A stretch of DNA of 32,824 nt from a virus. The notes beneath the pieces were generated by a model that ran no database searches, was not told where the DNA came from, and worked only from the letters and a program-made list of their open reading frames with translations. Location of the stretch: positions 1 to 32,824 of the IMG/VR virus record IMGVR_UViG_3300032265_001454; one strand, written 5' to 3'. Shown here one piece after another: positions 1 through 26,727 of the stretch (position 1 is its first letter; each line of letters opens with the position of its first letter). A program made the position numbers and the translations under genes.

Positions 1-261
1 AGGGAAAAAGTAAAATTGATCAAACGCCTGACCGAGCTTTTCCAAGGCCCTAAGGCTATAGTCCATAGTAGTGATGTTAAGACTGTTCCGATTGTGATGC
101 CAATCGCCCATAAAAATTCCTGTATCACAGCCTTCCTCCTTGGCTTTGGCAATGTACCAATCTACAAAATCTTCACAGTCTTGATTGTGAGTGTGACTAT
201 TAGATTTTAATCCAAAATGTATGTCTGTAAAACAGGCAACTTTCTTAAACAACTGCGTCAT
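1..261 (-). CDS. 47: gp47-like recombination endonuclease subunit (SbcD/Mre11 family), 5' part only
   Basis: The reverse strand from 261 reads 87 codons without a stop to the window edge, so the 3' part of the gene is missing. The N-terminus carries metallophosphoesterase motifs. D13 and H15 form the DxH motif (CFTDIHFG), and G52-D53 followed by H55, H56, N57 and R58 (MGDWHHNR) match the second metal-binding motif of SbcD/Mre11 and T4 gp47. In T4 the gp46/gp47 complex resects double-strand ends for recombination-dependent replication. The start ATG overlaps the stop of the upstream gp55-like gene (ATGA), so translation is probably coupled and both genes share one transcript. The gp55-gp47 pairing is usual in T4-like genomes. 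The family call is firm; the active site beyond motif II is not visible. Confidence 0.88.
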   Translation of the reverse strand, partial: MTQLFKKVACFTDIHFGLKSNSHTHNQDCEDFVDWYIAKAKEEGCDTGIFMGDWHHNRNSLNITTMDYSLRALEKLGQAFDQFYFFP

Positions 262-1110: not shown

Positions 1111-1139
1111 ATTATAAACTACGCAGTTAATAAAGTCAA
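1111..1139 (-). promoter_or_regulatory. sigma70-type promoter for the gp55-gp47 operon
   Basis: On the minus strand, TTGACT (complement of 1134-1139) is followed by exactly 17 bases and then TATAAT (complement of 1111-1116). This is 5 of 6 and 6 of 6 matches to the bacterial consensus at optimal spacing. It lies about 25-50 bp ahead of the gp55-like start codon. It would let unmodified host polymerase transcribe the late sigma factor gene. Its -10 shares bases with the late-promoter upstream box on the other strand. Confidence 0.75.
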
Positions 1140-1146
1140 ATAAATA
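1114..1146 (+). promoter_or_regulatory. late promoter 1: ATAAACTACGCA box plus ATAAATA -10
   Basis: ATAAATA at 1140-1146 matches the core of the T4 late -10 element TATAAATA. It starts 29 bp before the ATG at 1169, which predicts a leader of roughly 15-20 nt holding the AAGGG ribosome site (1156-1160). A 12-base box, ATAAACTACGCA (1114-1125), begins 26 bp upstream of the -10 motif. The same box recurs at the same spacing before the gp6-like gene. Confidence 0.75.
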
Positions 1147-1168
1147 ATATACCAAAAGGGATATTATT

Positions 1169-2164
1169 ATGGCATTCGGCGACAACTTACTACAAACTGT
1201 GACTAGTTCACAAAATGCAATTGGCGCGGCCGCTAATGCGGTTAATATTGCTGGAAACTTATCCAGTGCTATTAGCGCCGGATATAACAACGGCGGCGTA
1301 ATGAGTGCTATTCGTAGTATTGATCTACCAGCAGCCGGCGAAGCAATAGGAGACATAACCAGTGCTGTAGCCAGTTTCGGCGGAGATTCCAATTCCAATG
1401 ATTGGCGTGTTAGATTGAGCTTGCCAACATGGCCCAGCTTTAGAAATAGTCCAGTACTTTCTCCGTTAAAAGATGCAGGTGGATTAATTTTTCCTTACAC
1501 TCCTCAAATCACAATGACCAGTAAGGCCAACTATACTACTATTCCAGTGACACATCAAAATCATACATTTAGAGCATTTCAAAATAGTGAACACGGAGAA
1601 ATCAGTATTACTGCCCCAATGAACGTTGAAGATCCTACACAAGGATTATACTGGATTGCGGCGGTTCATTATTTAAGAAGTTTAACCAAAATGTTCACGG
1701 GAACTGATCCTAAGGCAGGTAATCCTCCTCCAATTGTTATGTTAAACGGATACGGAAACTATGTGTTTAAAAATGTCCCTGTAGTGGTTACAAATTTTAC
1801 AACAACACTGGATGCGGCATCGGACTATATCGGCGTCAACGTTGTAGGCAGTGCGGCAGGAGCTGCCGCAGGGGTAGCAGATGCTATTGGAGGCCTAGCA
1901 GGCAGTTTAGGTGGAGCCATACCTGGCATTAGTGGCATTACAGATACGGTAAGTAGTTTAGCTGGCGGTATTGGGCAAGTTGCCTCCTTAGCTGGAACAT
2001 TTGGTATCGGCGGAACCACTAGCGGAGGGGTCACTCATGTTCCAACCAAGAGTAGTTTCACAGTAACACTACAACCAATGTACAGCAGAAACAGTATGAG
2101 AACCTTTAGTCTTGATAGATTTGTTCAAGGCGGTTATATTAATAATAGTTTTGGATATATCTAA
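1169..2164 (+). CDS. baseplate tail-tube-fold protein, gp48/gp54-like
   Basis: This 331-aa virion protein opens the first late block. The central part (about 80-225) looks like the tail-tube fold used by gp19, gp48 and gp54: a WRVRLSLP strand, then FPYTPQITMTSKANY, an ALTERNATING hydrophobic strand pattern and a YWIAAVHYLRSLTKMFTG helix. The C-terminus (FTVTLQPMYSRNSMRTFSLDRFVQGG) is the kind of strand and tail found in such tube-end proteins. Two Ala/Gly/Ser-rich, weakly amphipathic stretches stand out, at about 8-70 and 228-285, the second inserted before the last strands. The gene precedes gp53, and its length is close to T4 gp48 (364) and gp54 (320), but I cannot tell which one it replaces. 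Identity as a tube-initiating baseplate protein is an inference from fold-like pattern and position. Confidence 0.55.
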   Translation: MAFGDNLLQTVTSSQNAIGAAANAVNIAGNLSSAISAGYNNGGVMSAIRSIDLPAAGEAIGDITSAVASFGGDSNSNDWRVRLSLPTWPSFRNSPVLSPLKDAGGLIFPYTPQITMTSKANYTTIPVTHQNHTFRAFQNSEHGEISITAPMNVEDPTQGLYWIAAVHYLRSLTKMFTGTDPKAGNPPPIVMLNGYGNYVFKNVPVVVTNFTTTLDAASDYIGVNVVGSAAGAAAGVADAIGGLAGSLGGAIPGISGITDTVSSLAGGIGQVASLAGTFGIGGTTSGGVTHVPTKSSFTVTLQPMYSRNSMRTFSLDRFVQGGYINNSFGYI

Positions 2165-2166
2165 AC

Positions 2167-2469
2167 ATGTCATCACATTACACAAATACTAGTCCGTGGT
2201 ATACAACACCAATTGTTAACAATTATTTGGATGTATTAACAATACGACCAGTTGCTTCAGCGGCTGATGATTTCTTGTACACTATTCAACCACAATATAC
2301 CTACAGACCAGATTTACTAGCATTTGACTTGTACGGGCAAGCAAGTTTGTGGTGGGTGTTTATTCAACGTAACCTTGATGTACTGCATGACCCTATTTTA
2401 GATTTTGTTCCAGGAACACAAATTTATATCCCAAAAGGATCAGGATTAACCACAGTATTAGGATTATAA
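2167..2469 (+). CDS. 53: gp53-like baseplate wedge protein (short form)
   Basis: This 100-aa protein matches the N-terminal, LysM-like part of T4 gp53, which lies in the wedge near the hub. The pattern RPDLLAFDLYGQASLWWVFIQRN corresponds to the gp53 signature in which a residue pair before YG is followed by LYWVLL. The end (DFVPGTQIYIP) is typical of LysM-type modules in baseplate proteins. T4 gp53 is 196 aa, so this is a reduced form lacking the C-terminal half. The gene begins 2 bp after the preceding stop and ends 1 bp before the next ATG, so it is part of a tight operon. Only a weak ribosome site (TGGAT) is seen, so re-initiation after the upstream gene is likely. Confidence 0.75.
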   Translation: MSSHYTNTSPWYTTPIVNNYLDVLTIRPVASAADDFLYTIQPQYTYRPDLLAFDLYGQASLWWVFIQRNLDVLHDPILDFVPGTQIYIPKGSGLTTVLGL

Positions 2470-2470
2470 T

Positions 2471-4759: not shown

Positions 4760-4767
4760 GGATCACT

Positions 4768-6180: not shown

Positions 6181-6617
6181 TGGCTTCTAAATTATATAAC
6201 AAGATTACTTTGCCGGCTGTAGCGCCTAACACTATTGCAGGCCCTAAAACTTACAAAGGATTCAGCACAGTAAATACCAATACTGAGAATTTTGCTCTGT
6301 ATGATTTTGAATTAATCAAACAGGATCTACTAAATCATTTTTATGTGAGACAGGGCGAAAGATTAATGAACCCTACATTTGGCACTATTATTTGGGACCT
6401 GTTGTTTGAACCATTGACAGAAACTATCAAAGATTTAATTTTACAAAATGTAAACGAAATTATCAACTACGACCCAAGGATACAAGCTGGTAATGTTGTT
6501 GTTTTGCCCTATGATACTGGTATACAGATACAATGTACATTGAAATATTCGCAATACAATTTGCAAGAAACCATACAATTAAAATTTGATCAAGCTAACG
6601 GATTGCTTGTACAATAA
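6180..6617 (+). CDS. 25: gp25-like baseplate wedge / sheath initiator
   Basis: This 145-aa protein is close in size to T4 gp25 (132 aa). It is the conserved sheath-initiating wedge component shared with type VI secretion TssE proteins. The signature RQGERLMNPTFGTIIWDLLFEPLTE carries the family's G-E-R/N-P-x-F-G and E-P elements. A helix (KDLILQNVNEIINYDPRI) and terminal strands follow. The start ATG overlaps the gp5 stop (TAATG), so translation is probably coupled. Its own stop codon (6615-6617) lies inside the ATAAACTACGCA box of the next late promoter. It ends the first late block. Confidence 0.93.
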   Translation: MASKLYNKITLPAVAPNTIAGPKTYKGFSTVNTNTENFALYDFELIKQDLLNHFYVRQGERLMNPTFGTIIWDLLFEPLTETIKDLILQNVNEIINYDPRIQAGNVVVLPYDTGIQIQCTLKYSQYNLQETIQLKFDQANGLLVQ

Positions 6618-6646
6618 ACTACGCACATAATTTATTTCAATAAATA
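6614..6646 (+). promoter_or_regulatory. late promoter 2: ATAAACTACGCA box plus ATAAATA -10
   Basis: ATAAATA occupies 6640-6646, 25 bp before the gp6 ATG at 6665. ATAAACTACGCA occupies 6614-6625. The two elements are separated by the same 14 bases as in the promoter before 1169, although the sequence between and around them differs. AGGA at 6655-6658 is the ribosome site. Confidence 0.75.
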
Positions 6647-6664
6647 CACTTATTAGGACACATT

Positions 6665-9600
6665 ATGAGCTCAACGGATAGACAAAATAACCTGTTAATT
6701 AGCGAAAATTGGCAGAAAATTTATCAATCGTTTAAGAATGCAGACTTTCAAAGTTACGACTTTGAAAATTTACGTCGTACAATGATTGACTATATCCGTA
6801 CGAATTTTCCTGAAGATTTCAACGATTACATAGAGTCCAGCGAATACCTTGCACTTATTGATATTATTGCATTTGTGGGACAGAGTATAGCTTTTCGTGT
6901 TGATTTAAATGCACGTGAAAACTTCCTTGAACTGGCAGAACGTAGGGATAGTGTACTGCGTCTCGCTCGTATGATTGGTTATAACCCTAGTAGAAATGTA
7001 CCAGCTTCGGGTTTGTTAAAAATTAATACAATTAGCACAACAGAAACTGTGCTTGACAGCAATGGCATCAATCTTGCCGGACAATATATTACTTGGAATG
7101 ATCCCAGTAATACCAATTGGTATGATCAATTTATTAAAGTATTAAATGCATCATTGATATCAACAAATCAATTTGGTAGCCCAGTGGATCAAGCAAGCAT
7201 TTATGGTATCAGCACTGGTCAGTATAGATTCAATGGCGCAAATACAAACGTCCCTACTTATAGCTTTACTAAAACAGTAGCAGGGCGTAGTATGAATTTT
7301 GAAGTTACTAGCACAACATTTGCTGGTAAAGACTATATTTACGAAGAGCCTCCAAAAATTGGCAACAGAATTGCATGTGTTTATAGAGACGATGGCTTTG
7401 GCGCTGGCAGTCCTAACACTGGATTCTTTTTTAATTTTACACAAGGCACATTGAATCAAGGCACGTTTGTTGTTACTCAGCCTACTAAGAATGAATCTAT
7501 AGATATTAACACACAAAATATCAATAATACTGATGTATGGCTATATTCAATAAATCAACAAACAGGTTTAGAAAACACTCTGTGGACTAAAGTACCAGCG
7601 TTGACTGGAAACAATATCATCTATAACAGTTTAAGTAATAAAATTAAAACTATCTATAGTGTAATAACTAGAGCAGGGGATGCAATAAGTTTAAGTTTTG
7701 CTGACGGAGTATTTGGAAATCTTCCACTAGGTAATTTTAGAGTTTACTATAGAACTAGTAACAATTTAACTTATACAGTTAATGCTTCTGATATTTTAAA
7801 TGTTTTAATCACAATTCCTTATACTAGCAATCAAGGGCAAATTGAAACTTTAACAGTAAGTCTTGGTTTAGTTACTAGTGTTTCTAACAGCTCGGGAACT
7901 GAAACAAACGCAAGCATTAAAACTAATGCACCTCAAACATACTATACACAAAATCGTATGGTGACTGGCGAAGATTATAATATTAGTCCATTGTCTGTCA
8001 CACAAAAAGTTGCAAAAGTTAAATCTATTAATAGAACAAGTAGTGGTATCAGCAGATACTTCGATCTAGTTGATCCTACTGGAAAATATAGTAGTACTAA
8101 TCTTTTTGCAGACGACGGAATCATTTACCAAGAACCCTATGTTTCAACAGTTGACTTTTCTTATTTGACTAAAACAGAAATTGAAGGTGTTATCTATAAT
8201 ACAATATTTCCAATATTGAATACACCTGATTTAAGAAATTTTTACTATGCAAATTATATTAATTATATTACAGAAAGTTTAAACATTTCTTGGTATAATA
8301 TAACAACTGACAGTAATAGTTGTACAGGATATGTCGGTTCGTCTTCGGACGGTGTACCTTATAAATTGGGATCCTACACCAGTACAGATTTAAAATATTT
8401 TACAACTGGCGCATTGATAAAATTTGTTGCACCTAGCGGAAAATATTTTGATACAACAGATAATAACATGTTAGTAATAGGCGATGCTACAGCTCCTGGA
8501 GCAGTTACTTATTTGTGGGCACAGGTTGTTTCTATAACAGCTGACGGTACCGCTGGTGGCACTGGAACTTTGGATACTAAATTTGGTCCAGTAATACTTA
8601 ACAAAGTTATTCCGTCAAATGCGGTAATAAGTCAGATTATTCCTCAATTAAATGTTACAATTTCTTCATCAGTTGTAACCACAATGATTGATTTAATTTT
8701 TAATAATAAACCATTTGGACTTCGCTACAATGCAAGTATCCAAAGCTGGCAAATTGTATTTGAGACTAACTTAAACACTACTAGTTCTTTTAATTTAAGT
8801 AATCAGGGAAATTCCAATAATACACAGCAAGATGCAAGTTGGTTATTATTGTTTACAACTAACAATGTGTACTATACAGTAAGTTCAAGATTACTGCGTT
8901 ATATATTTGAAAGCAATCAAGAAGTCACATTCTATTTTGATACTACACAAAAAATTTATGATATTGTATCAAGCAACACAATATTAGATAATTTAAAAAT
9001 TTTAAGCATTAACACACAACCAAATAGTACTCAGCCTTTTACAGTTGATATGTCTTGGCAAATTATTAGTGAGTATGTTGGAAAAGACGGGTACATAGAT
9101 CCAACAAAAATTGTTATAGCATTTGCAGATAGTGAAAATAATGGAATTGTTGACAATCCTCAACTGTTCTTAGATGTTGTTGCTCCTACTGTGAACAGTT
9201 TAGAAAAATATATTATACAAGAAAAATATTTAATTAGTGCAGGCCAAGAAGACTACCGTTATGTTGCTAATGATCAAAACATAGTTATAATTTTAAGCAC
9301 ACAGGGTAATGTTGGCGCATTGACTCAATATACTGACGGACAATATTTTTATTTTGTTGACAAGCAAGTTGTTAAAAAATACAATGCTTCAACAAGTACA
9401 TTGAATCCAACATTGGATTACAAAGTGTATGTAGGTAGAGATAATCTAAAATTCCAATACACTCACAGTGCTGATTATGATGCAAGAATTGATCCTGGCG
9501 CAAGCAATATCATGGACATCTATGTGTTAACTACAGCATATGACACACAATTTAGACAATGGCTTTCAGGTGCAAATGTAACCAAACCTCTTCCTCCAAG

Positions 9601-10129
9601 TAGTGGAGAATTGAATAGTTTGCTAGGATCAGAACTAAATGTAATCAAGTCTATATCAGATGAGATTATCTATCACCCAGTCAGTTATATTTTATTATTT
9701 GGAAATCAATCAGATCTTAATTTACAAGCTACATTTAACATAGTAAGAAATCCAAGTAGTACAGCTAGTGACAACGATATCATTGCTAGAACTATTACTG
9801 CGTTTAATAGATTTTTTGCTCTTGAGAATTGGAATTTTGGAGATACGTTTTATTTTTCAGAATTATCAACTTATGTCATGACACAGCTTACTCCTGATAT
9901 TACAAATTTTGTTATTGTTCCTAAACAAGGAGCTCAATATTTTGGTAGTTTATTTGAAATACAATGTCCAAGCGACAAAATATTCATTAGTTGTGCCACA
10001 GCACAGGATGTTGTGATAGTCTCAGGATTAACATCGGACAATATTAAAACAGTAACAGGGCAAGCTCTAAATTCGGTAGTGACAAGCCAAAATATAACTA
10101 GCGCAACTTTTGGGGTAACAAATGGCTAA
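6665..10129 (+). CDS. 6: gp6-like baseplate wedge protein (baseplate_J family), enlarged
   Basis: gp6 homologues form the ring that joins neighbouring baseplate wedges. Residues 1-120 match the gp6 N-terminus: NADFQSYDFENLRRTMIDYI, then ESSEYLALIDIIAFVGQSI, then RDSVLRLARMIGYNPSRNV. Residues about 335-445 are the baseplate_J-like core (SFADGVFGNLPLGNFRVYY and NRMVTGEDYNISP). The end (SISDEIIYHPVSYILLFG, ALENWNFGDTFYFSELSTYV) is the conserved C-terminal wedge region. At 1154 aa it is much longer than T4 gp6 (660). The extra mass lies mostly between about 500 and 1000, in beta-rich sequence. The last 8 nt overlap the start of the giant downstream gene. Confidence 0.9.
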   Translation: MSSTDRQNNLLISENWQKIYQSFKNADFQSYDFENLRRTMIDYIRTNFPEDFNDYIESSEYLALIDIIAFVGQSIAFRVDLNARENFLELAERRDSVLRLARMIGYNPSRNVPASGLLKINTISTTETVLDSNGINLAGQYITWNDPSNTNWYDQFIKVLNASLISTNQFGSPVDQASIYGISTGQYRFNGANTNVPTYSFTKTVAGRSMNFEVTSTTFAGKDYIYEEPPKIGNRIACVYRDDGFGAGSPNTGFFFNFTQGTLNQGTFVVTQPTKNESIDINTQNINNTDVWLYSINQQTGLENTLWTKVPALTGNNIIYNSLSNKIKTIYSVITRAGDAISLSFADGVFGNLPLGNFRVYYRTSNNLTYTVNASDILNVLITIPYTSNQGQIETLTVSLGLVTSVSNSSGTETNASIKTNAPQTYYTQNRMVTGEDYNISPLSVTQKVAKVKSINRTSSGISRYFDLVDPTGKYSSTNLFADDGIIYQEPYVSTVDFSYLTKTEIEGVIYNTIFPILNTPDLRNFYYANYINYITESLNISWYNITTDSNSCTGYVGSSSDGVPYKLGSYTSTDLKYFTTGALIKFVAPSGKYFDTTDNNMLVIGDATAPGAVTYLWAQVVSITADGTAGGTGTLDTKFGPVILNKVIPSNAVISQIIPQLNVTISSSVVTTMIDLIFNNKPFGLRYNASIQSWQIVFETNLNTTSSFNLSNQGNSNNTQQDASWLLLFTTNNVYYTVSSRLLRYIFESNQEVTFYFDTTQKIYDIVSSNTILDNLKILSINTQPNSTQPFTVDMSWQIISEYVGKDGYIDPTKIVIAFADSENNGIVDNPQLFLDVVAPTVNSLEKYIIQEKYLISAGQEDYRYVANDQNIVIILSTQGNVGALTQYTDGQYFYFVDKQVVKKYNASTSTLNPTLDYKVYVGRDNLKFQYTHSADYDARIDPGASNIMDIYVLTTAYDTQFRQWLSGANVTKPLPPSSGELNSLLGSELNVIKSISDEIIYHPVSYILLFGNQSDLNLQATFNIVRNPSSTASDNDIIARTITAFNRFFALENWNFGDTFYFSELSTYVMTQLTPDITNFVIVPKQGAQYFGSLFEIQCPSDKIFISCATAQDVVIVSGLTSDNIKTVTGQALNSVVTSQNITSATFGVTNG

Positions 10130-16100: not shown

Positions 16101-19100
16101 GACGGCCCAAGTTGGAACGTTTATAGATTTACAGATTTACAAATTACAATCACCAGTGTAGCTTATAATAATGTTGATACTTTAACTTTTACAACAGAAA
16201 ACTTACTATCATTTAAAGTAGGCGATTGGATTGGTATATCGCAAGTTGCTAAAATACAAGGGTTCTATCAAGTTACCAGCGTAAAATTGAATTCGTTTAC
16301 TGTTAATGCAGTTATTAGTGGATTTCCAAGTCCGTTTACACAGACTGCACAAGTAGTTGTTTATGCATTAGTAAGTCAGCGAACCAGTAGTATAAACAAT
16401 TTAGATACAGTTCTTACACCACGAGCTACACCTGGAGAAATGATATGGACAGACGATCAGGGCAATGGCAAATGGGCCGCGTGGAAATACAATCCAGTAT
16501 ACAATATTTCTTACCTTAATAATTCTGCTCCCCAAGCTAGTTTGGAGTTTGGATCAGTTGTTGCAATTAACAGAGCAGGCACAATGGCCGCTGTTGGAAC
16601 AGGTTTTGGACAAATTACTACCTATGATAAATTTAGTATTGCATTACCGTGGGTTCAACGACAAATTATAGAACCACCGTTTATTGCCACTAATGCAGTT
16701 TATCTCATCGGTGCTTCTACTACACTTGGTAGTACAACGGTATCTATGGCATCTGCTGTATCGGGCATGATTGGCGGACTCATCACAGGGCAAGGAATTC
16801 CGCTAGACACATTAATTACATCAGTAACACCGGGAGTTAGTGTAACAATCAGCCAAAAAGCTAATGCATCCAGTTCTGGAACAACATATACTGTTTCTAC
16901 AAACGTTAACCCATTAAATGTAATTTCAACATCGATATCGATATCTCCAGATGGTGAGTATTTAATTACAGGTAGTCCTTTAGCAGGTAATGCTGTTACA
17001 AATTATCTTGGCGAATACGATCCGTTGATTATTTACGGCCCAGGCGCAATAGTTAGTGTATTAAATTATGATACAGGTTTTACTGATTTTTACCAAGCTA
17101 TTGCGGTTGCACCGCTTGGAGCCGATCCATATGGCGGTAATCCAGAGTACTGGGAAAATATTTTTTATGTGCCTGTTAACAGCTACGGTACATGGGATCC
17201 AACTGTAATATACCCATTTGATTCAGGTACATCAACAGGCACAACTGTTGTTTATAAAGGTAAAGTTTACGAATCTGCAATAACTATATATGGTCAGGCA
17301 ACTATTACTGTTACAAATACCGCAGCCGTAACATATTATCTAACCACAGCAGATACTAGTGTGTTAGGTGTTGGATATCAAATTACTTTTTCAGGTAATA
17401 CATTTGGTGGTGTTGCACAAGGAGTAATATATTATGTGGCAACAATTATTAGTAGTACACAATTTACTATAACGGCTTTACAAGGTAGTGCATTAACTGT
17501 TCCATTAACTACCGCAAGCGGAGAGATGACAGCGACTCAAGCAGCCGCTCAGGCACCCGATAGCGGAAATGGTCAGTGGACACTACAGTATTCGTTAACT
17601 GGATATACTGGACAAGGTGTTGTTAGTTTATACAAAAAAGATTCAAACAACATTTATTCACTAGTTGATACTATCATTAGTCCGTTTGCTTCAGCAAATG
17701 AAAACTTTGGTTCAAGTTTTGCATTTGGCAACGATGTTATCTATATTTCTGCTCCAGGATATTTGAATAATACTGGTAGAGTTTATAAATTAAAATATTC
17801 TACAGTAGTTCAAGCAACATCTGCATATAACCCGGTTGGCAGTTATGCATCTGTGTTGCGTGTAACTAGCACAAGCGGTATTAGACCTGGTATGTATGTG
17901 TTAGGTGCAGGGTTCACTAGTGGTCAAATTGTCGAAACTATTTTAAGTTCTACAACAGTACAGTTATCGGGAACTCCTGATTCAACACCTAGTGGCTTGA
18001 TTGAATTTGCTGTAATTGGTTGGGGGTATGATCAAACAGAAATATATTCTGGAACAATAACCGGGATGAATTTTGGATACAGTCTTGCTATTAGCAATGA
18101 CAATTCTACTTTAGCAATCAGCGCCGCAAGTAATGTTACCACAGCGATAGTTGCAATATTTAAAGCATCGACTAATTTATCAATAGCTACAACCGGAGCA
18201 TCGGGCACTGGTACAACTGCAACAATAACATTTACAAAACAAAATCTTGTACCTTTTGCATTAGGAGATACTATTACAGTATCTGGAGTATCTCCTTCAA
18301 CATTTAACGGTGCATTTGTAGTAACTGCTGTTACAAATTCAAATGTAAGTTTTGCTAGTCCTGCAAGAGGTCCCCAAACACATGCTGGAATAATTACCGG
18401 TAATAGTTTATCTGGAATTGCTTTGACACAAGTTTTAGCTGGTATTGATTATGATATTCAACTGGCTATATCCGATGACGGCCAGTATATTGCTATATCT
18501 GATGACACAACTAGTACTTCTCAGATTAAACAAGGTGGTTCTGTAACTGTTTTCAAAAATACAAACGGACAATATACAGTTTATCAATCAGTATTACCAC
18601 ATCAGCCAGAAACAAATGGTCATTTTGGAAGAAAAATTTCCTTTATGAACAACTATAATACATTGGTAATTTATAGTCAATACGGCGATACATTTATTAC
18701 AACAACTTTTGATTCTAACGGAACAACATTTGATAAAAATTCAACACCATTTACTGTAAGACAAATTAACAGCGGTCGAGTTGATGTGTATGACAAATAT
18801 GCCGACAATTGGATATTCAGTGAGAGTCTAACTAGATCTAATCCAGTAACACCTGCTGGAGAATTTGTTGTGGGAGACACATACTCAATATTGAGTCTAG
18901 GTACAACTGATTTTACAAAAGTTGGTGCAAGTATCAATGCAATTGGGGTTACATTTACCGCAACCGGCGACGGTAATGGAACAGGTACAGCCGCTATCAT
19001 AACCAACGAATCAGGTGTGGCAGACGGGTATGGTTCTGGGTTTGCAGTCGGAGGAAATCATATTTTAATTGGTGCTCCTTTTGGAATTGATCAAGGGCTA

Positions 19101-22100
19101 CAATCTGGAAGAGTTTATGACTATGGAAAAAAACCAGGCCAGCAAACTTGGTCAGTCATGCATAGTGAAATTGATAAACCAGATGTGAAAAAAATTAAAA
19201 AAGCGTTTTTATACAATAGAAAATTAGGAACTCTGGTAACTTACTTGGATATAATTGATCCTGCCCAGGGAAAAATTGCTGGCCCAGCTGACGAAGAAAT
19301 TAAATTCAAAGCAGTATACGATCCTGCAACTTATAGTGTTGGAGATACCACAGTCAATGTAAATTCAGGAACAGCATGGACTGATGATCGAGTAGGACAG
19401 TTATGGTGGGATTTAAGAACCGCTAAATTTTTAAATGCTTATCAAGATAATCCAATTTATAAAAATACTAATTGGAACACATTGGCCCCAGGCGCAAGTA
19501 TAGACGTTTATGAATGGGTAAAATATAATCAGTTGCCAAGTCAATGGGACAGCCTTGCAGATACTCCTACCGGCATTGCACTTGGAATCAGCGGAACTAG
19601 TTTGTATGGTAACACTGTATATAGTGTAAAACAAACATATAATACAACCACACAGCAATTTAAAAATACATATTATTTCTGGGTCAAGAACAAAAAATTT
19701 GTACCTAATGTTCCTGGTAGAAATATGTCAGCTCAAAACGTGGCTAATTTAATTGCAAATCCAAGAGGTCAAGCATATACATATCTTGCACTAACTGGCC
19801 CTAGTAGTTTTAGCCTTGTAAATGCAAAACAATATTTAAAAAGCGATGAAGTTGTATTAAGCGTAGAATACTGGCTCGGCACAAAAACAGATCAAAATGT
19901 ACACGGCCATTGGAAACTTATCAGTAACGATCCTACCACTTATATTCCTTTGGTAATTGAACAAAAATGGATTGATAGTTTATGCGGAAAAGATTCTGCA
20001 GGTAGACAAGTTCCAGATCCGTCGTTGCCTCCAAAGATTCGTTACGGCATCGAAAACAGACCACGCCAAGGAATGTTTGTAAATCGTTTTGAAGCATTAA
20101 AAGAATTTGTAGAACAAGCTAATCAATTACTAGCAGTAAATCAAGTAGTTGAAAATAATAATCTTACAAATTTAGAAAGTTATGATGCTCCACCGTCTGC
20201 ATCATCTGGATTATATGATATATCTTTTGACACTTACCCTGAATTAAATTTTGCCAGCGTAGGAAATTTTGCTAAACCATCTATTAGTCCTTCGATAGCA
20301 GATGGTCGAATTGTTGGAATAACAATTAATACAGATACACAGGGAAACCCATTAGCTGGCAAAGGGTATACAATTGCACCGTTTATACAAGTAGTAGGCT
20401 CGGGCGAAGGCGCTGTTGTTAGAGCAATTATAAATGCTAAGGGACAAATTACCGGCGCTAAAATAGAATCAGCCGGTGAAGGCTACGATAGTTCAACTAT
20501 AATGATTGTTAGAAATTATAGTGCATTGGTATTAAGTGATGAAAATGCAAATAATAAATGGAGCATATACAACTGGATACCACCAACAACTACATCCAAT
20601 GGATCGATAGTTGATGGTTACTGGACCCTACAAAGAACACAATCGTATGATGTTAGAGATTACTGGAATTATTCAGATTGGTATGCACCTGGATATAGTC
20701 AGTTTACATTAGCTGATTTTTCTGTTGCTACATTATCTGATTTAAATTCTATAGAACCTATACTGGGAGAAACAGTAAAAGTTAGAAATAGTAATTCAGG
20801 AGGGTGGGTAATACTAGTCAAGTATGCTAATTCAACTAGCGTTGATTGGACACAAAGCTATAAAATTGTTGGAATACAAAACGGAACTATACAATTAAGT
20901 TCTTCTTTGTATAATACAACTGCAACTACACAAGGTTTTGATAATAATATATACGATTCAGACTCTTATGATTTGGTAGCGGCAACTGAATTAAGAATAA
21001 TATTAGATAGTTTAAAGAATAATATTTTTGTTGGAGAACTAAACGGTTCTTATTTAGACTTGTTCTTTGGTAGCGTACATTATATTCACAGTGAGCAACC
21101 TTATGTTGACTGGATATTTAAAACCAGTTTTGTAAGAGCACAACATAACATTGGAAGTTTAGATCAGCCGGTTACTTACAAACCAGACAATTTATCAAAC
21201 TTTGAAGATTATGTAAACGAAGTCAAGCCTTATAAAACCAAAGTTAGAGAGTATATTAGTAACTATGATAGTATAGATCCAGCACAACTTCCTATAACTG
21301 ACTTTGATCTACAACCAATCTATGAAGGTAATAAAATGACCTTGATAGAAGTTCATGTACAAAATGGTCAAATTATTGCACAGGATCCAGCCATTGAAAC
21401 TTATCCTTGGAAATTCTGGGCAGATAATGTTGGATTTACCATTACTGAATTAAAACTAATCGACGGCGGCAGTGGATATGTAACAGAACCTCAGGTTGTT
21501 ATTTCAGGAAATAGTGGAAATGGAGCTACTGCAAGAGCATTTATCAGTAATGAAAAAGTTAATCGAGTAGTATTACTGACACCGGGCGCAGGGTATTTAG
21601 AAGCTCCAAAAGTTACAATTAACGGCGGGATACTTCCGACTGGTACTCCTGCACAGGTTGTGGCCACTATAGGAAAAGGTGTTGTTAGATCTAATTATAT
21701 CGGAATTAAATTTGACAGAGTTGACCAAAAATATTATATAACACAGTTACAAAAAAATGAAACTTTTACTGGAACAGGTTCTAGACTACAATTTCCATTA
21801 GTATGGGGCCCAGATAACCGAATTGGTCAAAGTACAGTTACTATTGATGGCATTCTTGCATTAAGAGATACCTATACATTAAATATTCTTTCAAATAAAA
21901 CCAAAGGATATACAACTTATTCTGGTACAATAACATTTACTAAACCGCCCATCAAAGGCGCGGCAATATCAGTTACATATATCATAGATGAATCTTTGTT
22001 GAGTGCTACAGATCGAATTCAATACTATTATAATCCAACAACTGGAGAATTAGGAAAAGATCTAGCACAGCTGATGACAGGCATTGATTATGGTGGTGTG

Positions 22101-25100
22101 ATAGTTAATGGTTTAGGTTTTGAAGTGTCACAGGGTTGGGACAGTGTTCCATTTTATTCAGATAAGTGGGACACATATGATTCTAAATACACTGATTATA
22201 GCATAGTTGTAGATGCAAACACACATGAATTTACATTGCCATACACGCCGTCGTCTGGAACACAACTAAACATTTATAAATTGTCCACCAGTGTTGACTC
22301 ATATGTGTCAGACGGTGTCGCAACTCAGTATCAGTATAACATTCAAGACTTTAATCCGTATGCTACTGTAACAAACACCACACAAACTCAGGGAATTTAT
22401 GCTACATTTACATCAATTAATACTGTAGTAAATTCGTATGGAACAGTTCTAGTGGTATCTAGTACAACGAATATTGTATCAGGTATGACAATTTCTGGAA
22501 CAGGATTTGTGTCCGGTCAAACAGTAGTATCAGTTACAAATTCTACTACAATAAGATTAAGCGCACCACCAGATAGTTTACCAAACGGCACACTAGTATT
22601 TTCTTTTAATGTTGCTGGTAGTAACATTCTTAGAGTAGCTAGTGTAACAGGCGTGAGAGTTGGAGACGTGCTGTCCACAGCTGATACTAGTCTTGACTTG
22701 TTTGCATCAAGCACCACTGTAAAATCAATCTCTGGAAAAGTATTAACTTTAAACACAATATTATATTACAGTATACCTGATACTACCTATATAACATTCA
22801 CACGCAAATTAATTCAACCAACAGATGTAGTTATAACAGGAACTGGATTAGCAACTTTAACTAATTTGTCAAACAGCGGAATTGTGGCAGGTTCCACGAT
22901 CAATATTATTGGATCTCTGAATCCAATTAAATTAGATGATCCTAATTATAACATTGCACCGTATTTTGCTCAACTGATAGAAGCATCTGCATATGATACA
23001 GCCTTTACTTCTAACTATCAAAGTATTCAAGCAGGACTTGCAATACTAAATCATATCACTGTGTATGGTTACAAAGTAAGCGAAACAAATTATTCTATTT
23101 CTGAATTAATTTCTAACATTACTGGGTTACCAAATGTAGCAAATAATACACCAGCGGTTACTGAAATCAATACTAATGCCGCTATTATTAAAAATATTGT
23201 GAGCGGAGGTATTGTTCCACAACCAATTTTTACCTCACCGTATGGCACACCAACACGCATAGTATACAATGTTCCAACGATCAATACTCCTAGCGATGGC
23301 ATTCATATTGGTCCATATGTGTATATTCCAGTAGCAACTATTGGTGCTACACCTGTAACAACCGGTTGGTCTGTATCCGGGTTAGGAATAACAGGGTTTG
23401 CCAGTGTCACAAATGTAGTAATACAAAATGGATTAGTTGCGGCACAAATTAATCAAAGTATTCAACTATTGGTTGAATCTGGAAATTATACCTTTATTTC
23501 TCCAGGATACGGTTCGTATAGTGCCGCAACATTGCTGAACGATAATATTCCGTTCATACAAGCAGAGTTGGTAAAGTATCTTAGCAATAATTATCCAAGC
23601 ATAACAATCAATCTTACAGATTTTCAAACAAGAATACAGTACATTGTACTAAGTTTATGCTATGATTTAATGTACGGCGGCAACAGAGAATCTATATATT
23701 CGGCGACACAATACTGGATTTATAACAATAGTATTCCATTCATTCAACCATCGTCTTATTGGTCTGGTATATTTGGTTACCTTAATACTATAGCACAAAA
23801 CATTATTACGAATACGCCGTTTACAAGATTACAAACAGCTTTTTTCCAAACTACAGTTGCTAACTTGGTAAATGGTGTAGTTGCAAGTACATCTATTAGT
23901 AACAATATTACGACAATAAAAACAGTTATTAGTAATTCTTTCTATCCTAATGCTACAATAGTTAACCCTACATTAACTGTTGCACCTGCTGGATTGCAAA
24001 CTGTTGCAAACACAATTTTATCAAACGAATCTGCATTAACTCCAGCTGTAAATCCATCGGCAATAGTTAATACATTCTTGTCTAATGGTGTGTCTGATGG
24101 CGACGGGCTTGTAACTAAAACATTTACAATACCACAACCATACACATTGGTGGACGGCGGAAAAGCAAATTCAGTTATTGATATTCAAGTTGACGACGGC
24201 GGCTCAGCCAGTACCACTTACGGTGCTCTTGATAGAGTGGACGCAGGATCAAACGCATCTGCAAATGTGTTTATTGTATCAAAAGGCGATGAATTTATTA
24301 TTAGACAAACAACTAGTGATGGTTCTATTACTCCTCAGCCTCAAGACTACGATACTGCCTTAGACGGCGGTGATACTAGTACATTAACTGGAATTTTTGC
24401 TACAGCAACGGGTCTAGCCGCTGACGATATTATTGTAGATGGCGACGGGTTTGTTACAACTTCCACAAATGTTGCACCAGAGGAAGTAGTTCCAGGGCAG
24501 GTTGTTGATACTCTTGCTATCAAAGTATTTGACAAACCTACCAGCGGATCAGCAACTATAAAAGTAGATAATTATTTCGGTGACGGAACTAATACTACTT
24601 TCAAAGTCACTCAGCAAGCTAATAGTCCAGGCGCAATTATTGTAAAATCTAACGGATCAGTAAAGACAATTACAGCAGATTATGATATTGATTTTAATAA
24701 TAGCAATGTGGTATTCCATGTTGCTCCTGCAATGAACGCACAAATCAGTTTGTTTAGTATTGGATTCAGCGGTGCTAATATTATTGACATTGACCATTTT
24801 ATTGGAGACGGACAAACTAGAGAGTTTGTAACCAATGCATCTTGGACATCTCCAATAACTGTGCTGGTTTACGTTAATGGCACAGTTGCTAGCCCGCAAA
24901 TATTTAAGACTGATACATCTTATTCGTATTCAAATGCTATTGGATTTAAATTTGCAATAGCTCCTAAGGTAGGAGACCTTATCAATTTTATAATTGTAGC
25001 AGGATCTTCGCCTACGTATGCTATTTCTAATATTGAAACAGTATTAACTAACGGCTTAAGAACTTATACATTACAAAATATTGTTGGTAATTCTTTACCT

Positions 25101-26690
25101 AATGAATCAAATATGATTGTTCGAGTAGATCAAAATATTTTATCTGGGCCAGTTAATAGTTACTTTACAATTGGTAGCAACAGATTAAATTATAATATTG
25201 ATCCAACCAAATTTGTTCCTTACAGCGTTGATATTACTACAATAAATGTATATGTAGGAAATACTACATTGGTATTAGGCAAAGATTATATTGTAGATCT
25301 CGGCGGTATCACAATTAAAATTAATAAAAATACATATTCTGCCTATAAAGGACAAGAATTAGTGGTAAGCGTTACTACAGGCCAAGGTTACACATTTAAT
25401 CCGTCATCTAATCAAATCACATTTGATCAAGCATACGACAATACTCATGTAGTTCAAGTGATTAGTTCTTATCAACATGAGTTTTTAGATATACAAAGAA
25501 CAACAGTTTCTGCATCCAGCACTGCATTGTTAGTACCAAACTCTTCTCAATATTATTACTATGAAAATATTCTTGGAGGTGTAATAGATTTAGATAGACC
25601 AGTGCTTAATGATTACTATGTATGGGTAATTAAAAATAACAAATTGTTAAGTCCTGTAGTTGACTACAAATTAAATGAAGATTATCAAAGTATCACACTG
25701 GCACAAAACTGCATTATTACAGATAAGATTACGTTAATTACATTTGGTAGTAATGTGTTACAATCTGGAATTGCATACATGCAATTTAAAGACATGCTTA
25801 ACCGAGTAAGTTACAAACGCCTAAGTCAGGCAAAACAAACTACACTTGCACAAGATTTGCATTGGAATGATATTAATATTGTGGTATCAAATGCTTCTGC
25901 ATTTGATTTGCCTAATCCTAGAAACAACAAACCTGGAGTTGTTGAAATTCGAGGAGAGCGTATTGAATATTTTTCGTTGGTTGGTAATACACTAAGTCAA
26001 TTACGCAGAGGAACATTAGGTACTGGAGTTAACACGCTAGTGGTTGCAGGATCTAATGTGCAAGATATTGGCGGTAGTGAAACTATACCCTACCACGATA
26101 CACAGATTGTAAATCATATTATCAGTGACGGAACTTCTACAGTTAATTTAGATTTCACACCAGCATCGGTAAATGAAATAGAAGTGTTTGTTGGCGGATA
26201 TAATGACGGAACTCAGTGGGAATCAGGAGCAGTTTATTCTGTAGGATCAATAGTTAATGTAGGAGTTTATACTTATAGATGTCTTGTTAATCACTCCAGC
26301 GGCAGTACTTTCTTCAGCCCTGTGACTACAGTGACTATAAACCCTGACGGTACAACAACAGCAACAGCAATTAATGTACTTTCTTCTAGTGTTTGGCAAT
26401 TCTTTATAGGCAATCTTCGATTGAAGAAAGTTGGATATAGTGTGTTTAACATAAACAACGCACCGTCCAGCCCCGAAGGAGATGTTACATTTAAGGCAGA
26501 CTTTACAGTTGACGGCACTACACCTCAAATAACATTGACTAATTTACTAAGTTTTGGAACACAAATTACAGTAGTTAAGAATACCGGAAAGGCATGGGAC
26601 AACACTACAAATATTCTCTACGATACTGGAAAGATAAGTGATTTTGTTAGATCTGCACCCGGTATTTGGTACAGCGAGTATAAACAATAA
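10122..26690 (+). CDS. giant modular baseplate structural protein at the gp7 position (5522 aa)
   Basis: One open frame of 16.6 kb follows gp6, where T4 has gp7 (1032 aa), so it is probably a wedge or wedge-attached protein; I see no clear gp7 sequence match. The N-terminus (1-165: ANRKFLQATVDQLFQPGSV, RIRQDYQFEPSITIQD, EFYSWDPHIDWDKFVNFQNY) is familiar to me from marine T4-like structural proteins. A cupredoxin-like module follows (about 163-268), and about 1130-1300 is a conserved core (FGDQSPVETAWRRSSHYPFA). Chitin-binding-like modules appear near 1426, 1549 and 1738, an apparent FG-GAP-type propeller at about 2130-3010, Gly-rich beta repeats near 3390-3463 and 3778-3836, and a helical region near 4280-4650 (YDLMYGGN). 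The C-terminal part has EEVVPGQVVDTLAIKV (about 4787) and VEIRGERIEYF with QLRRGTLGTG. I count only about seven cysteines. Recognisable phage structural motifs throughout argue against a chimeric assembly. Function beyond the virion baseplate is inferred. Confidence 0.8.
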   Translation: MANSQDAKKGNISLSEKLLPTFYQTSANRKFLQATVDQLFQPGSVQKINGYIGRKNAKSANGEDIYLAAADRIRQDYQFEPSITIQDNLGNTTFFKDYIDYINQIGVFGGLNNNHARLNKQEFYSWDPHIDWDKFVNFQNYYWLPYGPETIKFPGQAKAIESTYTVTIESEINNNEYVFTPNGFTRNPVLKLYRGQTYHFDINSPGNPFSIKTARTPGTADRYLNDFVSGYGIETGVLTFTVPLDAPTILYYQSETDVNLGGAFEILSILEDSYIDITHDLLGKKTYKLPDGTQLSNGMKVSFLGNVTPAEYAVGEYFVEGVGTSIKLVSTKILEIINTYTTEQTIPFDTDKFDTEPFSDATGFAGQPDYIVINKTSNDYNNWSRYNRWFHKDVIIASATYNGNVASLDQTARAVRPIIEFEANLKLANFGTNAITDVDIVDDYTTDAFSFIEGTLGYNVDGVPLAQGQRIIFTADQDRLVRNKIFEVQFLDVLHLNAGSRQIHLAEIATPVLNQVTLVKTGKKYQGKNIYYDGSSWVVGQQKTKINQAPLFDIVDSNGISYGDNTVYNGSTFKGTTLFSYKLGSGNNDSHLGFPLSYRNISNIGDIVFNFTLATDSFQYKINTEVLTQNINVGYLVTQNYSGKTIYKNGWQECTVENTQAAIRIYKNSNLTNNFPIDIFDDINNLLDLTVKIYINGKRLDPALWSISAGPYYKIVVLTTPIALTDVLTIRAFSAQPINKNGYYEIPLNLQNNPLNNIMGDFTLGEVIDHVGSIVDNTLEFSGSFPGSGNLRDLGNTTQYGTKFVQHSGPLSNSLYHITSETNNIVRSVEQSRDDYNNFKRNFIKLAGNLGVDGNPVTVVNLIMQKLNKDRPNTAPYYFSDMVPYGASVKTDLTVVDHRIKQYPLSSVFTLDTLSNKAVGIYLNGVQLLHIQDYTFDNQGFVIIDPSVPMNTGDTITTVEYDSTDGCFVPATPTKFGMWPSYIPKIYTDTTYLTPRTMIQGHDGSQVLAYGDYRDALILELEKRIFNNIKVKYDTSIFDIADVIPGYNRSNDYSLTEFNEVLAPNFYKWTTLSGRDFTKPLSYNINNTFTYNYTGTAAPDGSPLPGYWRGIFQYLLDTDRPNLCPWEMLGFSIEPSWWQSLYGPAPYTGDNSPMWQDISDGLVKAPGKPPVKLSKYAKPFLMKHLPVDSDGRLVSPLVSGLAHGPTTQTIANNFIFGDQSPVETAWRRSSHYPFAVILSSILLTPAKTIGLLLDRSRIVRNLAGQLVYKDTNLRIRPADIKLPSIYTSSSRVQTSGIVNYVVDQILNFIFSNNIKSYKQYITDLATMTTKLSYRVGAFTSKDQLNLLLDSKTPLSKGNVFVPKENYNVVLNTSNPIKKITYSGVIITKLSSGYEVKGYSKTQPYFKYYPYTQSGATITVGGISEVYSQFTQGQQYTTGSVIEFNGQYFRALVNFTAGPTLDSSTVTILGSLPVIGGATATMRKRWDRTVPITVPYGTEFGTAQEVVDFLQGYGRWLQDQGFVFDSFNVNLSHVANWETSSKEFLFWTTQNWSPTINPSKDWVPNEPVAYGSIIKYNGSYYSAQYNIPPAELFDETLYTTLDGLSVVGNSVLSLSPAATKLTFTTTLAVVDDIKNQFYKYEIFKVDGTPISPKFLDSYRSGNVVTYTPRTTDGIYSASFYLIQHEQVVTLDNTTIFNDVIYNPESGYRQERIKVAGHVSMDWYGGLDIPGFIFDQAVVQEWQSWKDYSLGDIVNYQGFYYSALSALVGTQTFNPVSWTQLENKPTPQLLPNWSYKASQFEDFYSLESDNFDSAQQKMAQHLVGYQKRQYLDNILQDDVTEFKFFQGMIKEKGTQNSLNKLFNVLSSDNLESLVFYEEWALRLGQYGAAKAFENIEFILDESKFRINPQGVELRNLNDVSLDETFIIQQTKNDVYLKPFGYNSQPWPLLSVYNPYLRSAGYVNASDVFLSIGHLTELKNHNVATFNEGAYISVSFDGPSWNVYRFTDLQITITSVAYNNVDTLTFTTENLLSFKVGDWIGISQVAKIQGFYQVTSVKLNSFTVNAVISGFPSPFTQTAQVVVYALVSQRTSSINNLDTVLTPRATPGEMIWTDDQGNGKWAAWKYNPVYNISYLNNSAPQASLEFGSVVAINRAGTMAAVGTGFGQITTYDKFSIALPWVQRQIIEPPFIATNAVYLIGASTTLGSTTVSMASAVSGMIGGLITGQGIPLDTLITSVTPGVSVTISQKANASSSGTTYTVSTNVNPLNVISTSISISPDGEYLITGSPLAGNAVTNYLGEYDPLIIYGPGAIVSVLNYDTGFTDFYQAIAVAPLGADPYGGNPEYWENIFYVPVNSYGTWDPTVIYPFDSGTSTGTTVVYKGKVYESAITIYGQATITVTNTAAVTYYLTTADTSVLGVGYQITFSGNTFGGVAQGVIYYVATIISSTQFTITALQGSALTVPLTTASGEMTATQAAAQAPDSGNGQWTLQYSLTGYTGQGVVSLYKKDSNNIYSLVDTIISPFASANENFGSSFAFGNDVIYISAPGYLNNTGRVYKLKYSTVVQATSAYNPVGSYASVLRVTSTSGIRPGMYVLGAGFTSGQIVETILSSTTVQLSGTPDSTPSGLIEFAVIGWGYDQTEIYSGTITGMNFGYSLAISNDNSTLAISAASNVTTAIVAIFKASTNLSIATTGASGTGTTATITFTKQNLVPFALGDTITVSGVSPSTFNGAFVVTAVTNSNVSFASPARGPQTHAGIITGNSLSGIALTQVLAGIDYDIQLAISDDGQYIAISDDTTSTSQIKQGGSVTVFKNTNGQYTVYQSVLPHQPETNGHFGRKISFMNNYNTLVIYSQYGDTFITTTFDSNGTTFDKNSTPFTVRQINSGRVDVYDKYADNWIFSESLTRSNPVTPAGEFVVGDTYSILSLGTTDFTKVGASINAIGVTFTATGDGNGTGTAAIITNESGVADGYGSGFAVGGNHILIGAPFGIDQGLQSGRVYDYGKKPGQQTWSVMHSEIDKPDVKKIKKAFLYNRKLGTLVTYLDIIDPAQGKIAGPADEEIKFKAVYDPATYSVGDTTVNVNSGTAWTDDRVGQLWWDLRTAKFLNAYQDNPIYKNTNWNTLAPGASIDVYEWVKYNQLPSQWDSLADTPTGIALGISGTSLYGNTVYSVKQTYNTTTQQFKNTYYFWVKNKKFVPNVPGRNMSAQNVANLIANPRGQAYTYLALTGPSSFSLVNAKQYLKSDEVVLSVEYWLGTKTDQNVHGHWKLISNDPTTYIPLVIEQKWIDSLCGKDSAGRQVPDPSLPPKIRYGIENRPRQGMFVNRFEALKEFVEQANQLLAVNQVVENNNLTNLESYDAPPSASSGLYDISFDTYPELNFASVGNFAKPSISPSIADGRIVGITINTDTQGNPLAGKGYTIAPFIQVVGSGEGAVVRAIINAKGQITGAKIESAGEGYDSSTIMIVRNYSALVLSDENANNKWSIYNWIPPTTTSNGSIVDGYWTLQRTQSYDVRDYWNYSDWYAPGYSQFTLADFSVATLSDLNSIEPILGETVKVRNSNSGGWVILVKYANSTSVDWTQSYKIVGIQNGTIQLSSSLYNTTATTQGFDNNIYDSDSYDLVAATELRIILDSLKNNIFVGELNGSYLDLFFGSVHYIHSEQPYVDWIFKTSFVRAQHNIGSLDQPVTYKPDNLSNFEDYVNEVKPYKTKVREYISNYDSIDPAQLPITDFDLQPIYEGNKMTLIEVHVQNGQIIAQDPAIETYPWKFWADNVGFTITELKLIDGGSGYVTEPQVVISGNSGNGATARAFISNEKVNRVVLLTPGAGYLEAPKVTINGGILPTGTPAQVVATIGKGVVRSNYIGIKFDRVDQKYYITQLQKNETFTGTGSRLQFPLVWGPDNRIGQSTVTIDGILALRDTYTLNILSNKTKGYTTYSGTITFTKPPIKGAAISVTYIIDESLLSATDRIQYYYNPTTGELGKDLAQLMTGIDYGGVIVNGLGFEVSQGWDSVPFYSDKWDTYDSKYTDYSIVVDANTHEFTLPYTPSSGTQLNIYKLSTSVDSYVSDGVATQYQYNIQDFNPYATVTNTTQTQGIYATFTSINTVVNSYGTVLVVSSTTNIVSGMTISGTGFVSGQTVVSVTNSTTIRLSAPPDSLPNGTLVFSFNVAGSNILRVASVTGVRVGDVLSTADTSLDLFASSTTVKSISGKVLTLNTILYYSIPDTTYITFTRKLIQPTDVVITGTGLATLTNLSNSGIVAGSTINIIGSLNPIKLDDPNYNIAPYFAQLIEASAYDTAFTSNYQSIQAGLAILNHITVYGYKVSETNYSISELISNITGLPNVANNTPAVTEINTNAAIIKNIVSGGIVPQPIFTSPYGTPTRIVYNVPTINTPSDGIHIGPYVYIPVATIGATPVTTGWSVSGLGITGFASVTNVVIQNGLVAAQINQSIQLLVESGNYTFISPGYGSYSAATLLNDNIPFIQAELVKYLSNNYPSITINLTDFQTRIQYIVLSLCYDLMYGGNRESIYSATQYWIYNNSIPFIQPSSYWSGIFGYLNTIAQNIITNTPFTRLQTAFFQTTVANLVNGVVASTSISNNITTIKTVISNSFYPNATIVNPTLTVAPAGLQTVANTILSNESALTPAVNPSAIVNTFLSNGVSDGDGLVTKTFTIPQPYTLVDGGKANSVIDIQVDDGGSASTTYGALDRVDAGSNASANVFIVSKGDEFIIRQTTSDGSITPQPQDYDTALDGGDTSTLTGIFATATGLAADDIIVDGDGFVTTSTNVAPEEVVPGQVVDTLAIKVFDKPTSGSATIKVDNYFGDGTNTTFKVTQQANSPGAIIVKSNGSVKTITADYDIDFNNSNVVFHVAPAMNAQISLFSIGFSGANIIDIDHFIGDGQTREFVTNASWTSPITVLVYVNGTVASPQIFKTDTSYSYSNAIGFKFAIAPKVGDLINFIIVAGSSPTYAISNIETVLTNGLRTYTLQNIVGNSLPNESNMIVRVDQNILSGPVNSYFTIGSNRLNYNIDPTKFVPYSVDITTINVYVGNTTLVLGKDYIVDLGGITIKINKNTYSAYKGQELVVSVTTGQGYTFNPSSNQITFDQAYDNTHVVQVISSYQHEFLDIQRTTVSASSTALLVPNSSQYYYYENILGGVIDLDRPVLNDYYVWVIKNNKLLSPVVDYKLNEDYQSITLAQNCIITDKITLITFGSNVLQSGIAYMQFKDMLNRVSYKRLSQAKQTTLAQDLHWNDINIVVSNASAFDLPNPRNNKPGVVEIRGERIEYFSLVGNTLSQLRRGTLGTGVNTLVVAGSNVQDIGGSETIPYHDTQIVNHIISDGTSTVNLDFTPASVNEIEVFVGGYNDGTQWESGAVYSVGSIVNVGVYTYRCLVNHSSGSTFFSPVTTVTINPDGTTTATAINVLSSSVWQFFIGNLRLKKVGYSVFNINNAPSSPEGDVTFKADFTVDGTTPQITLTNLLSFGTQITVVKNTGKAWDNTTNILYDTGKISDFVRSAPGIWYSEYKQ
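10609..10929 (+). other. cupredoxin-like module in the giant protein, metal ligands lost
   Basis: Residues about 163-268 follow the pattern of cupredoxin-like domains: LYRGQTYHFDI, then a G-x-P-F strand, then YGIETGVLTFTVPLDAP, then LYY and GG. In related modules the G-H-P-F histidine and a YYxCxxHxxM ending are expected. Here the positions read G206-N207-P208-F209 and Y251-Y252-Q253-S254-E255, with no Cys, His or Met ligands. A structural rather than redox role is inferred. Confidence 0.5.
14395..15465 (+). repeat. cluster of three chitin-binding-like (CBM5/12-type) modules
   Basis: Three stretches of the giant protein share the layout x-Y-x-x-G-(S/D)-(I/V)-(I/V)-x-(Y/F)-x-G-x-(Y/F)-(Y/F)-x-A. 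They are YTTGSVIEFNGQYFRAL (near 14424-14475), VAYGSIIKYNGSYYSAQ (near 14820-14870) and YSLGDIVNYQGFYYSAL (near 15357-15408). The third is flanked by W residues as in CBM5/12 folds (EWQSWKDY and NPVSWTQL). Related copies occur at about 17180-17280 and 26212-26415 in the same gene, and at about 28368-28470 in the collar fibre gene. Glycan binding is an inference from the pattern. Confidence 0.5.
16530..19150 (+). other. apparent FG-GAP/propeller region with inserted modules
   Basis: Residues about 2137-3010 of the giant protein contain recurring blades of the form (F)G-x-(S/A)-(V/L)-A-I-x-x-D/N-G-x-x-(A/L)-(A/V)-(I/V)-(G/S). Examples are FGSVVAINRAGTMAAVG, TSISISPDGEYLITGSP, FGSSFAFGNDVIYISAPG, FGYSLAISNDNSTLAIS, LAISDDGQYIAISDD and YGSGFAVGGNHILIGAPFG. 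This is typical of integrin-alpha-like FG-GAP propellers. The blades are separated by unrelated beta modules, including two chitin-binding-like stretches. Blade number (about six or seven) is estimated by eye. Confidence 0.5.
17844..18008 (+). repeat. dispersed beta module, copy 1 (pairs with 22437-22608)
   Basis: Residues about 2575-2629 of the giant protein read GM-x-V-x-G-A-GFTSGQIVETI, then SSTTVQLS and PDSTPSG. They align closely with residues about 4106-4163 of the same protein (GM-x-I-x-G-T-GFVSGQTVVSV, NSTTIRLS, PDSLPNG). A more diverged relative lies at about 16696-16880 (GLITGQGIPLDTLITSV). Confidence 0.7.
22437..22608 (+). repeat. dispersed beta module, copy 2 (pairs with 17844-18008)
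   Basis: Residues about 4106-4163 of the giant protein repeat the module seen about 4.6 kb upstream, keeping the SGQ-x-V turn, the STT-x-x-LS strand and the PDS-x-P loop. A related half-module follows directly (ILRVASVTGVRVGDVLS, near 22624-22680). The two copies sit in otherwise unrelated surroundings, as expected for a movable insertion domain. Confidence 0.7.
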
Positions 26691-26696
26691 AACTAT

Positions 26697-26727
26697 TAAA
26701 CTAGCAGATAATGATGCTGGATAAATA
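26697..26727 (+). promoter_or_regulatory. late promoter 3: TAAACTAGCA box plus ATAAATA -10
   Basis: ATAAATA occupies 26721-26727, 27 bp before the ATG at 26748. Upstream, TAAACTAGCA (26697-26706) equals the TAAACTACGCA of the first two promoters with one base missing. Its GCA lies exactly the same 14 bases from the -10 motif as in those promoters. An AG-rich ribosome site (GAGAGA, about 26736-26742) follows. There is no convincing terminator in this 57-bp gap. Confidence 0.68.

Follow-up and report, generated by a model that had tools for sequence, protein, structure and literature searches.

Promoters that consist of a -10 element alone are classically exemplified by the late promoters of T4, from which transcription begins ~6 bp past the -10 late in infection; the gp55-type holoenzyme is thought to leave the -35 region unread. 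The -35 position of these promoters shows no sequence conservation, and gp33 recognizes no sequence (PMC2988020). DsbA, a GapR-like dsDNA-binding protein of T4, binds A/T-rich sites that overlap late promoters (PMC2988020). In T4 middle promoters, the -35 element is replaced by a MotA box, which is centred near -30 and has a strict spacing to the -10 (PMC2988021). The C protein of phage Mu is a dimeric activator of a few late promoters and has its site at or upstream of the -35 region (PMC4461284).

The late promoters described here resemble those of the T4 type in that a NATAAATA -10 is found at late structural genes and a gp55 homologue is encoded. One of the four in the window (at 30922) and most other late promoters of these phages also share the lack of -35-region conservation. 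Unlike T4, however, a subset carries a conserved 18-bp dyad in this region. As with the MotA box, this is a phage-specific box near -30 (here approximately -29.5) with strict spacing to the -10, but the MotA box is a non-palindromic sequence (TGCTTtA) that is bound by a monomer and paired with a sigma-70 -10, whereas the element found here is a dyad paired with a gp55-type -10 ([AC]TAAATA). The proposed likeness to Mu C is that of a dimeric activator (the dimer here being predicted from the dyad) with a site in the -35 region of a few late promoters; it differs from the Mu promoters in that the -10 is of the gp55 type rather than the host type, and in the sequence and position of the site. The literature searched, which leaves out most subscription journals, contained no description of an element of this kind. 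A -35-region dyad at tail promoters would mean that a second factor divides T4-type late transcription into regulated classes, and it hints at a means by which jumbo phages could keep tail and head production in proportion.

Gene content of the window

The window (the whole stretch of DNA that was analysed, 32,824 bases) is the entire IMG/VR virus record IMGVR_UViG_3300032265_001454. Judged by sequence comparison, it is a contig of an uncultured jumbo phage of the PA5oct/RaK2 kind. The closest cultured phages with respect to gp55 and gp6 are PA5oct, Phosso and the RaK2/CBB/121Q jumbo phages (all <60% identity), and the gene order near gp55 is mostly kept in PA5oct, RaK2 and CBB. The features of the window are collected in Table 1. 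The part of gp55 that lies N-terminal to the T4-like segment is conserved. The virion module includes a single open reading frame of 5522 aa (10122-26690), and positions 27360-32428 encode three consecutive tail-fibre-like proteins with a related N-terminal segment (VADGTID.. KNYAGYG.. LENFAN).

Table 1. Genes, late promoter elements and dyad boxes of the window.
Feature	Position	Strand	Remarks
gp55 late sigma factor, 276 aa, with N-terminal extension	258..1088	-	phrog_12791 (3.9e-73); phrog_234
-10 TATAAT of gp55 sigma-70 promoter	1111..1116	-	17-bp spacer; overlaps outer end of dyad 1
Dyad box 1, ATAAACTACGCAGTTAAT	1114..1131		7/9 symmetric pairs; 26 bp upstream of late -10
-35 TTGACT of divergent gp55 sigma-70 promoter	1134..1139	-	
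Late gp55-type -10 ATAAATA	1140..1146	+	before 1169 baseplate operon
Virion structural protein	1169..2164	+	opens baseplate operon; homology
Baseplate operon after 1169	2167 (gp53-like); 2471; 4768 (gp5-like); 6180 (gp25-like)	+	homology
Dyad box 2, ATAAACTACGCACATAAT	6614..6631		5/9 symmetric pairs; overlaps gp25 stop codon
Late -10 ATAAATA	6640..6646	+	before gp6
gp6-like baseplate wedge protein	6665..10129	+	phrog_10646 (2e-297)
Box 3, ATTAAACTAGCAGATAAT	26695..26712		variant: half-sites closer by 1 bp
Late -10 ATAAATA	26721..26727	+	before 202-aa gene
202-aa conserved protein, function unassigned	26748..27356	+	phrog_11259; heads tail-fibre genes
Late -10 ATAAATA	30922..30928	+	before 30953; without upstream box

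An 18-bp dyad upstream of late -10 elements

The sequence ATAAATA occurs only four times in the window (19.7 expected), each time on the + strand directly before a gene, as would be expected of real late promoters. This TATAAATA-like -10 directly before genes is as in T4-type late transcription, and CTAAATA is found in orthologues. A preliminary description of the window correctly placed the 12-mer ATAAACTACGCA at 1114-1125 and 6614-6625, exactly 26 bp before the ATAAATA at 1140 and 6640, and a shorter copy (TTAAACTAGCA) before that at 26721. The occurrence of two identical 12-mers in the same register in four AT-rich upstream regions has a P of ~1.5e-4 (Markov simulation). In a scan of the window with a profile of the box, the three sites rank at the top with scores of 24.8 to 26.6, the next distinct site scoring 13.9. 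The simulation, together with the counts at promoters and control sites given below, rules out a chance origin of the shared box.

While the element is real and fixed in register, its conserved length is 18 bp and not the 12 bp that had been proposed. It is an imperfect dyad that extends from -26 to -9 relative to ATAAATA, with the consensus ATWAACTACGYAGTTWAT and half-sites of approximately ATWAWST separated by a 4-bp gap. Because it reaches -9, the stretch between the 12-mer and the -10, first thought to be unconserved, is partly conserved. In T4 numbering (TATAAATA at -13 to -6, with an inferred start site) the dyad covers approximately -38 to -21 and is centred at approximately -29.5. Two parts of the earlier proposal are supported, namely that these late promoters are bipartite, having an element near -32, and that the promoter at 30922 belongs to a separate class. 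No box is present at 30922 or at its orthologous promoters (0/9).

Conservation of the box in related phages

Relatives were collected by homology to gp6, gp55 and the 202-aa protein, the box being ignored in the selection. The box recurs at -26 before the orthologous genes of >200 IMG/VR contigs, including those of marine relatives (e.g. L274), and has a sharp left edge; in the homology-selected promoters of the 202-aa gene, the information content rises from ~0 bits at -27 to 1.1 bits at -26. Each of three promoter families (1169, gp6 and 202-aa) shows conservation from column -26 through column -9 ahead of ATAAATA, and gp6 promoters retain the box down to ~50% protein identity. The -10 can also begin with C: of 120 orthologous 1169 promoters, 49 read CTAAATA and retain the box.

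In profile searches, 238 of the 275 promoters that precede the 1169, gp6 and 202-aa genes have the box precisely at -26, a count that describes the fit of the profile because it was trained on the three families that it scores best. Several of the promoters that lack a match at -26 carry the same box at -25. Upstream of NTAAATA, a box at -26 is present at none of 1471 sites without a following ORF and at 4 of 417 sites before other ORFs. As many of the contigs are related, these counts do not represent independent events. Simple inheritance of one promoter is ruled out, since unrelated genes share the box at a fixed spacing.

Restriction of the box to tail genes

By the criterion that the preliminary description set for itself, the box is no general late-promoter element: nearly all other late genes lack it (the 4/417 above) and it is absent from cultured relatives. 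PA5oct, RaK2, CBB, Phosso, Atu_ph07 and SCTP-2 have no box at these genes, although most have ATAAATA there. In these box-less references the frequency of the dyad pattern for the most part does not exceed that of its reversed control, whereas box-bearing contigs mostly show an excess.

Two of the four matches before other ORFs, and two more at -25, precede a gene of the tail-tube family (PHROG tail tube). A homology search with this gene gave 33 unique promoters, nearly all of which lie outside the training set of the profile; the box is present in 30 of them, nearly always at -25 or -26. The tail-tube-family gene (region L318 5213-5260; orthologues L420-L466) starts 5 nt after ATAAATA and so would have a leaderless late mRNA, beginning at the AUG itself, if the T4 start-site distance holds.

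Two scans of IMG/VR for the dyad followed by 7-8 bp and [AC]TAAATA (MTAAATA), with no gene requirement, returned at least 116 unique contexts. Among the matches listed, a tail gene follows in every one of the 112 that have a readable ORF (1169 family, at least 51; tube, at least 43; gp6, at least 16; gp25, at least 2), and four others end at contig edges. A pattern scan with the box as first described gave matches almost exclusively at 1169, gp6 and 202-aa genes. In 257 Gb of bacterial and archaeal (GTDB) genomes, the exact palindrome is found in four contigs, which is the level expected by chance and argues against a common host operator.

Symmetry of the box

The most symmetric sites are those of the tube family, in which the box is mostly palindromic (ATTAACTACGTAGTTAAT; 9/9 pairs in five sites, 8/9 in five and 7/9 in ten). 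A symmetry scan of the tube promoters that makes no use of the profile finds the same centre, where 5.09 of 9 pairs are symmetric (median, 2.45). The centre of the box is also the best symmetry centre in the gp6 promoters (0.58 of pairs) and the 1169 promoters (0.65). In the 202-aa promoters the gap seems to be 1 bp shorter and symmetry is confined to the outer arms; relative G004, unlike the others, has the ordinary form of the box at this promoter. Symmetry is present in the consensus and in individual sites, and no covariation was seen between half-sites. The 18-base palindrome suggests that the tail genes are a late class of their own, under the control of a DNA-binding protein, and its symmetry points to a dimer rather than to a sigma domain.

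Overlap with the gp55 sigma-70 promoter

The divergent promoter of gp55 (TTGACT-N17-TATAAT) is a near-perfect match to the host sigma-70 sequence TTGACA-N17-TATAAT. An exact TTGAC[AT]-N17-TATAAT precedes gp55 in 60 of 67 unique relatives, and the dyad centre lies at one fixed position relative to this promoter in 66 of the 67. The dyad at site 1 is thus inside the sigma-70 spacer. The conservation at this site is that of the box only in part; the remainder belongs to the divergent early promoter, which the preliminary description had missed. PA5oct, RaK2 and CBB have a sigma-70-like gp55 promoter with no dyad. Since the site 1 dyad stands between divergent promoters and is part of neither local transcript, it is expected to act as DNA.

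Proposed function of the box

The reading that we favour, with somewhat better than even confidence, is that the box is the operator of a dimeric, probably phage-encoded protein that activates the gp55-dependent tail promoters and blocks early transcription of gp55. Under this model, the dimer would bind the dyad in the -35 region at a fixed spacing to the late -10 and, once bound, would contact gp55-RNA polymerase, leading to more initiation at the tail-assembly operons. Its targets would be the tail-tube family gene, the 1169 baseplate operon, gp6 and (through the variant box) the operon of the 202-aa and tail-fibre genes, which together would make up a late-gene subclass under common control. 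At the site shared by 1169 and gp55, the dimer would occupy the 17-bp sigma-70 spacer and so also block early gp55 transcription. That the spacing stays constant in unrelated promoters speaks for contact with the polymerase and hence for activation. The overlap with the early promoter of gp55 makes this early-to-late switch directly testable. A broader suggestion, which is tentative and which we hold to be rather doubtful as a whole, is that this clade has added to a T4-type late system a dedicated, phage-encoded dimeric activator at the -35 position, which the absence of sigma region 4 leaves vacant, such that the tail genes form a separate regulon and the early source of gp55 is turned off.

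The main alternative, possible although unlikely, is that the dyad is a repressor or timing operator, at which a dimer bound at approximately -30 would keep the tail promoters silent, together with the sigma-70 promoter of gp55, until titration or removal of the dimer. Dyads over core promoter positions are typical of repressors. The dyad at the gp55 locus, lying in the sigma-70 spacer and covering part of the -10, is one at which binding should block polymerase. Box-like sequences over the -10 of gp26-like promoters and a dyad without a late -10 at a GIY-YIG endonuclease gene (both described below) fit repression as well. The spacing of 25-26 bp to the late -10 is, however, constant at four unrelated promoters, and repression needs no such constancy. 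The position of the dyad also matches that of an activator box, the MotA box centred at -30 (PMC2988021).

Activation by a separate dimer is also to be weighed against a box that is read as a true -35 element by the N-terminal extension of gp55 or by a gp33-like subunit, which appears improbable. The location of the box is one to which sigma region 4 would extend, and gp55 is a 276-aa protein with a conserved N-terminal part beyond its T4-like segment. An extra gp55 domain was among the readers first suggested, but a long-type gp55 is also found in RaK2, CBB and PA5oct, all of which lack the box. The other late promoters of the same phages have no box, and the element is a dyad. No match to gp33 (PF16805), a divergent family, was detected in 20 related contigs, which are fragments.

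The possibility that the box is merely the conserved sigma-70 promoter of gp55, copied or inherited elsewhere without function, is largely refuted and now very remote. The most conserved columns of site 1 (ATTATA and GTCAA) do form the TTGAC[AT]-N17-TATAAT of gp55, but the gp6, 26748 and tube promoters share the dyad and its spacing with no divergent gp55 gene, the three cultured phages named above keep the sigma-70-like promoter without the dyad, and the conservation extends to those bases of the dyad that lie in the spacer. Equally little is left of an RNA or structural element (terminator, hairpin, recombination or packaging site), which the inverted repeat in intergenic DNA might suggest but which is largely refuted by the folding energies of the window sites as RNA (only 0 to -0.4 kcal/mol), by the location of the site 1 dyad outside both local transcripts and by the constant -10 spacing and tail-gene restriction, which fit promoter control.

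Candidate proteins for recognition of the box

The box provides concrete DNA sequences with which its binding factor could be fished out. The MotA domains (PF09158 and PF09114) matched T4 only and none of the related contigs, which are incomplete. The AlphaFold model of gp55 is weak (mean pLDDT 62.7) and gave no significant fold match. Pfam scans of 20 small conserved proteins revealed no clear DNA-binding domain besides a weak match to DsbA. Weak homologues of this T4 protein are encoded by many box-bearing contigs and also by the box-less PA5oct, Phosso, Atu_ph07 and SCTP-2; the presence of DsbA alone does not explain the box, and DsbA is rejected as its specific reader.

A candidate was also sought among small protein families common to large contigs. 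A protein of ~90 aa encoded after gp46 (L182:596-871:-) was found at every one of 40 box-bearing gp55 loci and in 8/8 further contigs of the clade; 8 reference phages lack it, as do 50,697 phage records (tblastn). It is basic and has a predicted helical hairpin, with no informative PDB match. This small two-helix protein could be the reader of the box; its association with the box would also be expected from shared ancestry, and it is a candidate only.

Other box-like sequences

At promoters of a gp26-like gene (MANNPL...; e.g. L281 10044), a box-like sequence, AAAGTACGTATATAAATA, overlaps the -10. A second late promoter faces the first at these loci, forming a bidirectional pair. Dyads without a late -10 are found at L476 10095-10112, L311 18024-18041 and L141 near 392-409. 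These are located after gp46, where the gene of a small basic protein meets that of a SegE-like GIY-YIG endonuclease. A 94-aa gene whose product starts MSRPKP (L281-L333) has a late promoter and, downstream of it, a short hairpin in the 5' UTR (ATGCGTA...TACGCAT). This hairpin surrounds the ribosome-binding site and differs from phage to phage by what look like compensatory changes. A box-like match at this gene was set aside because the region resembles this hairpin.
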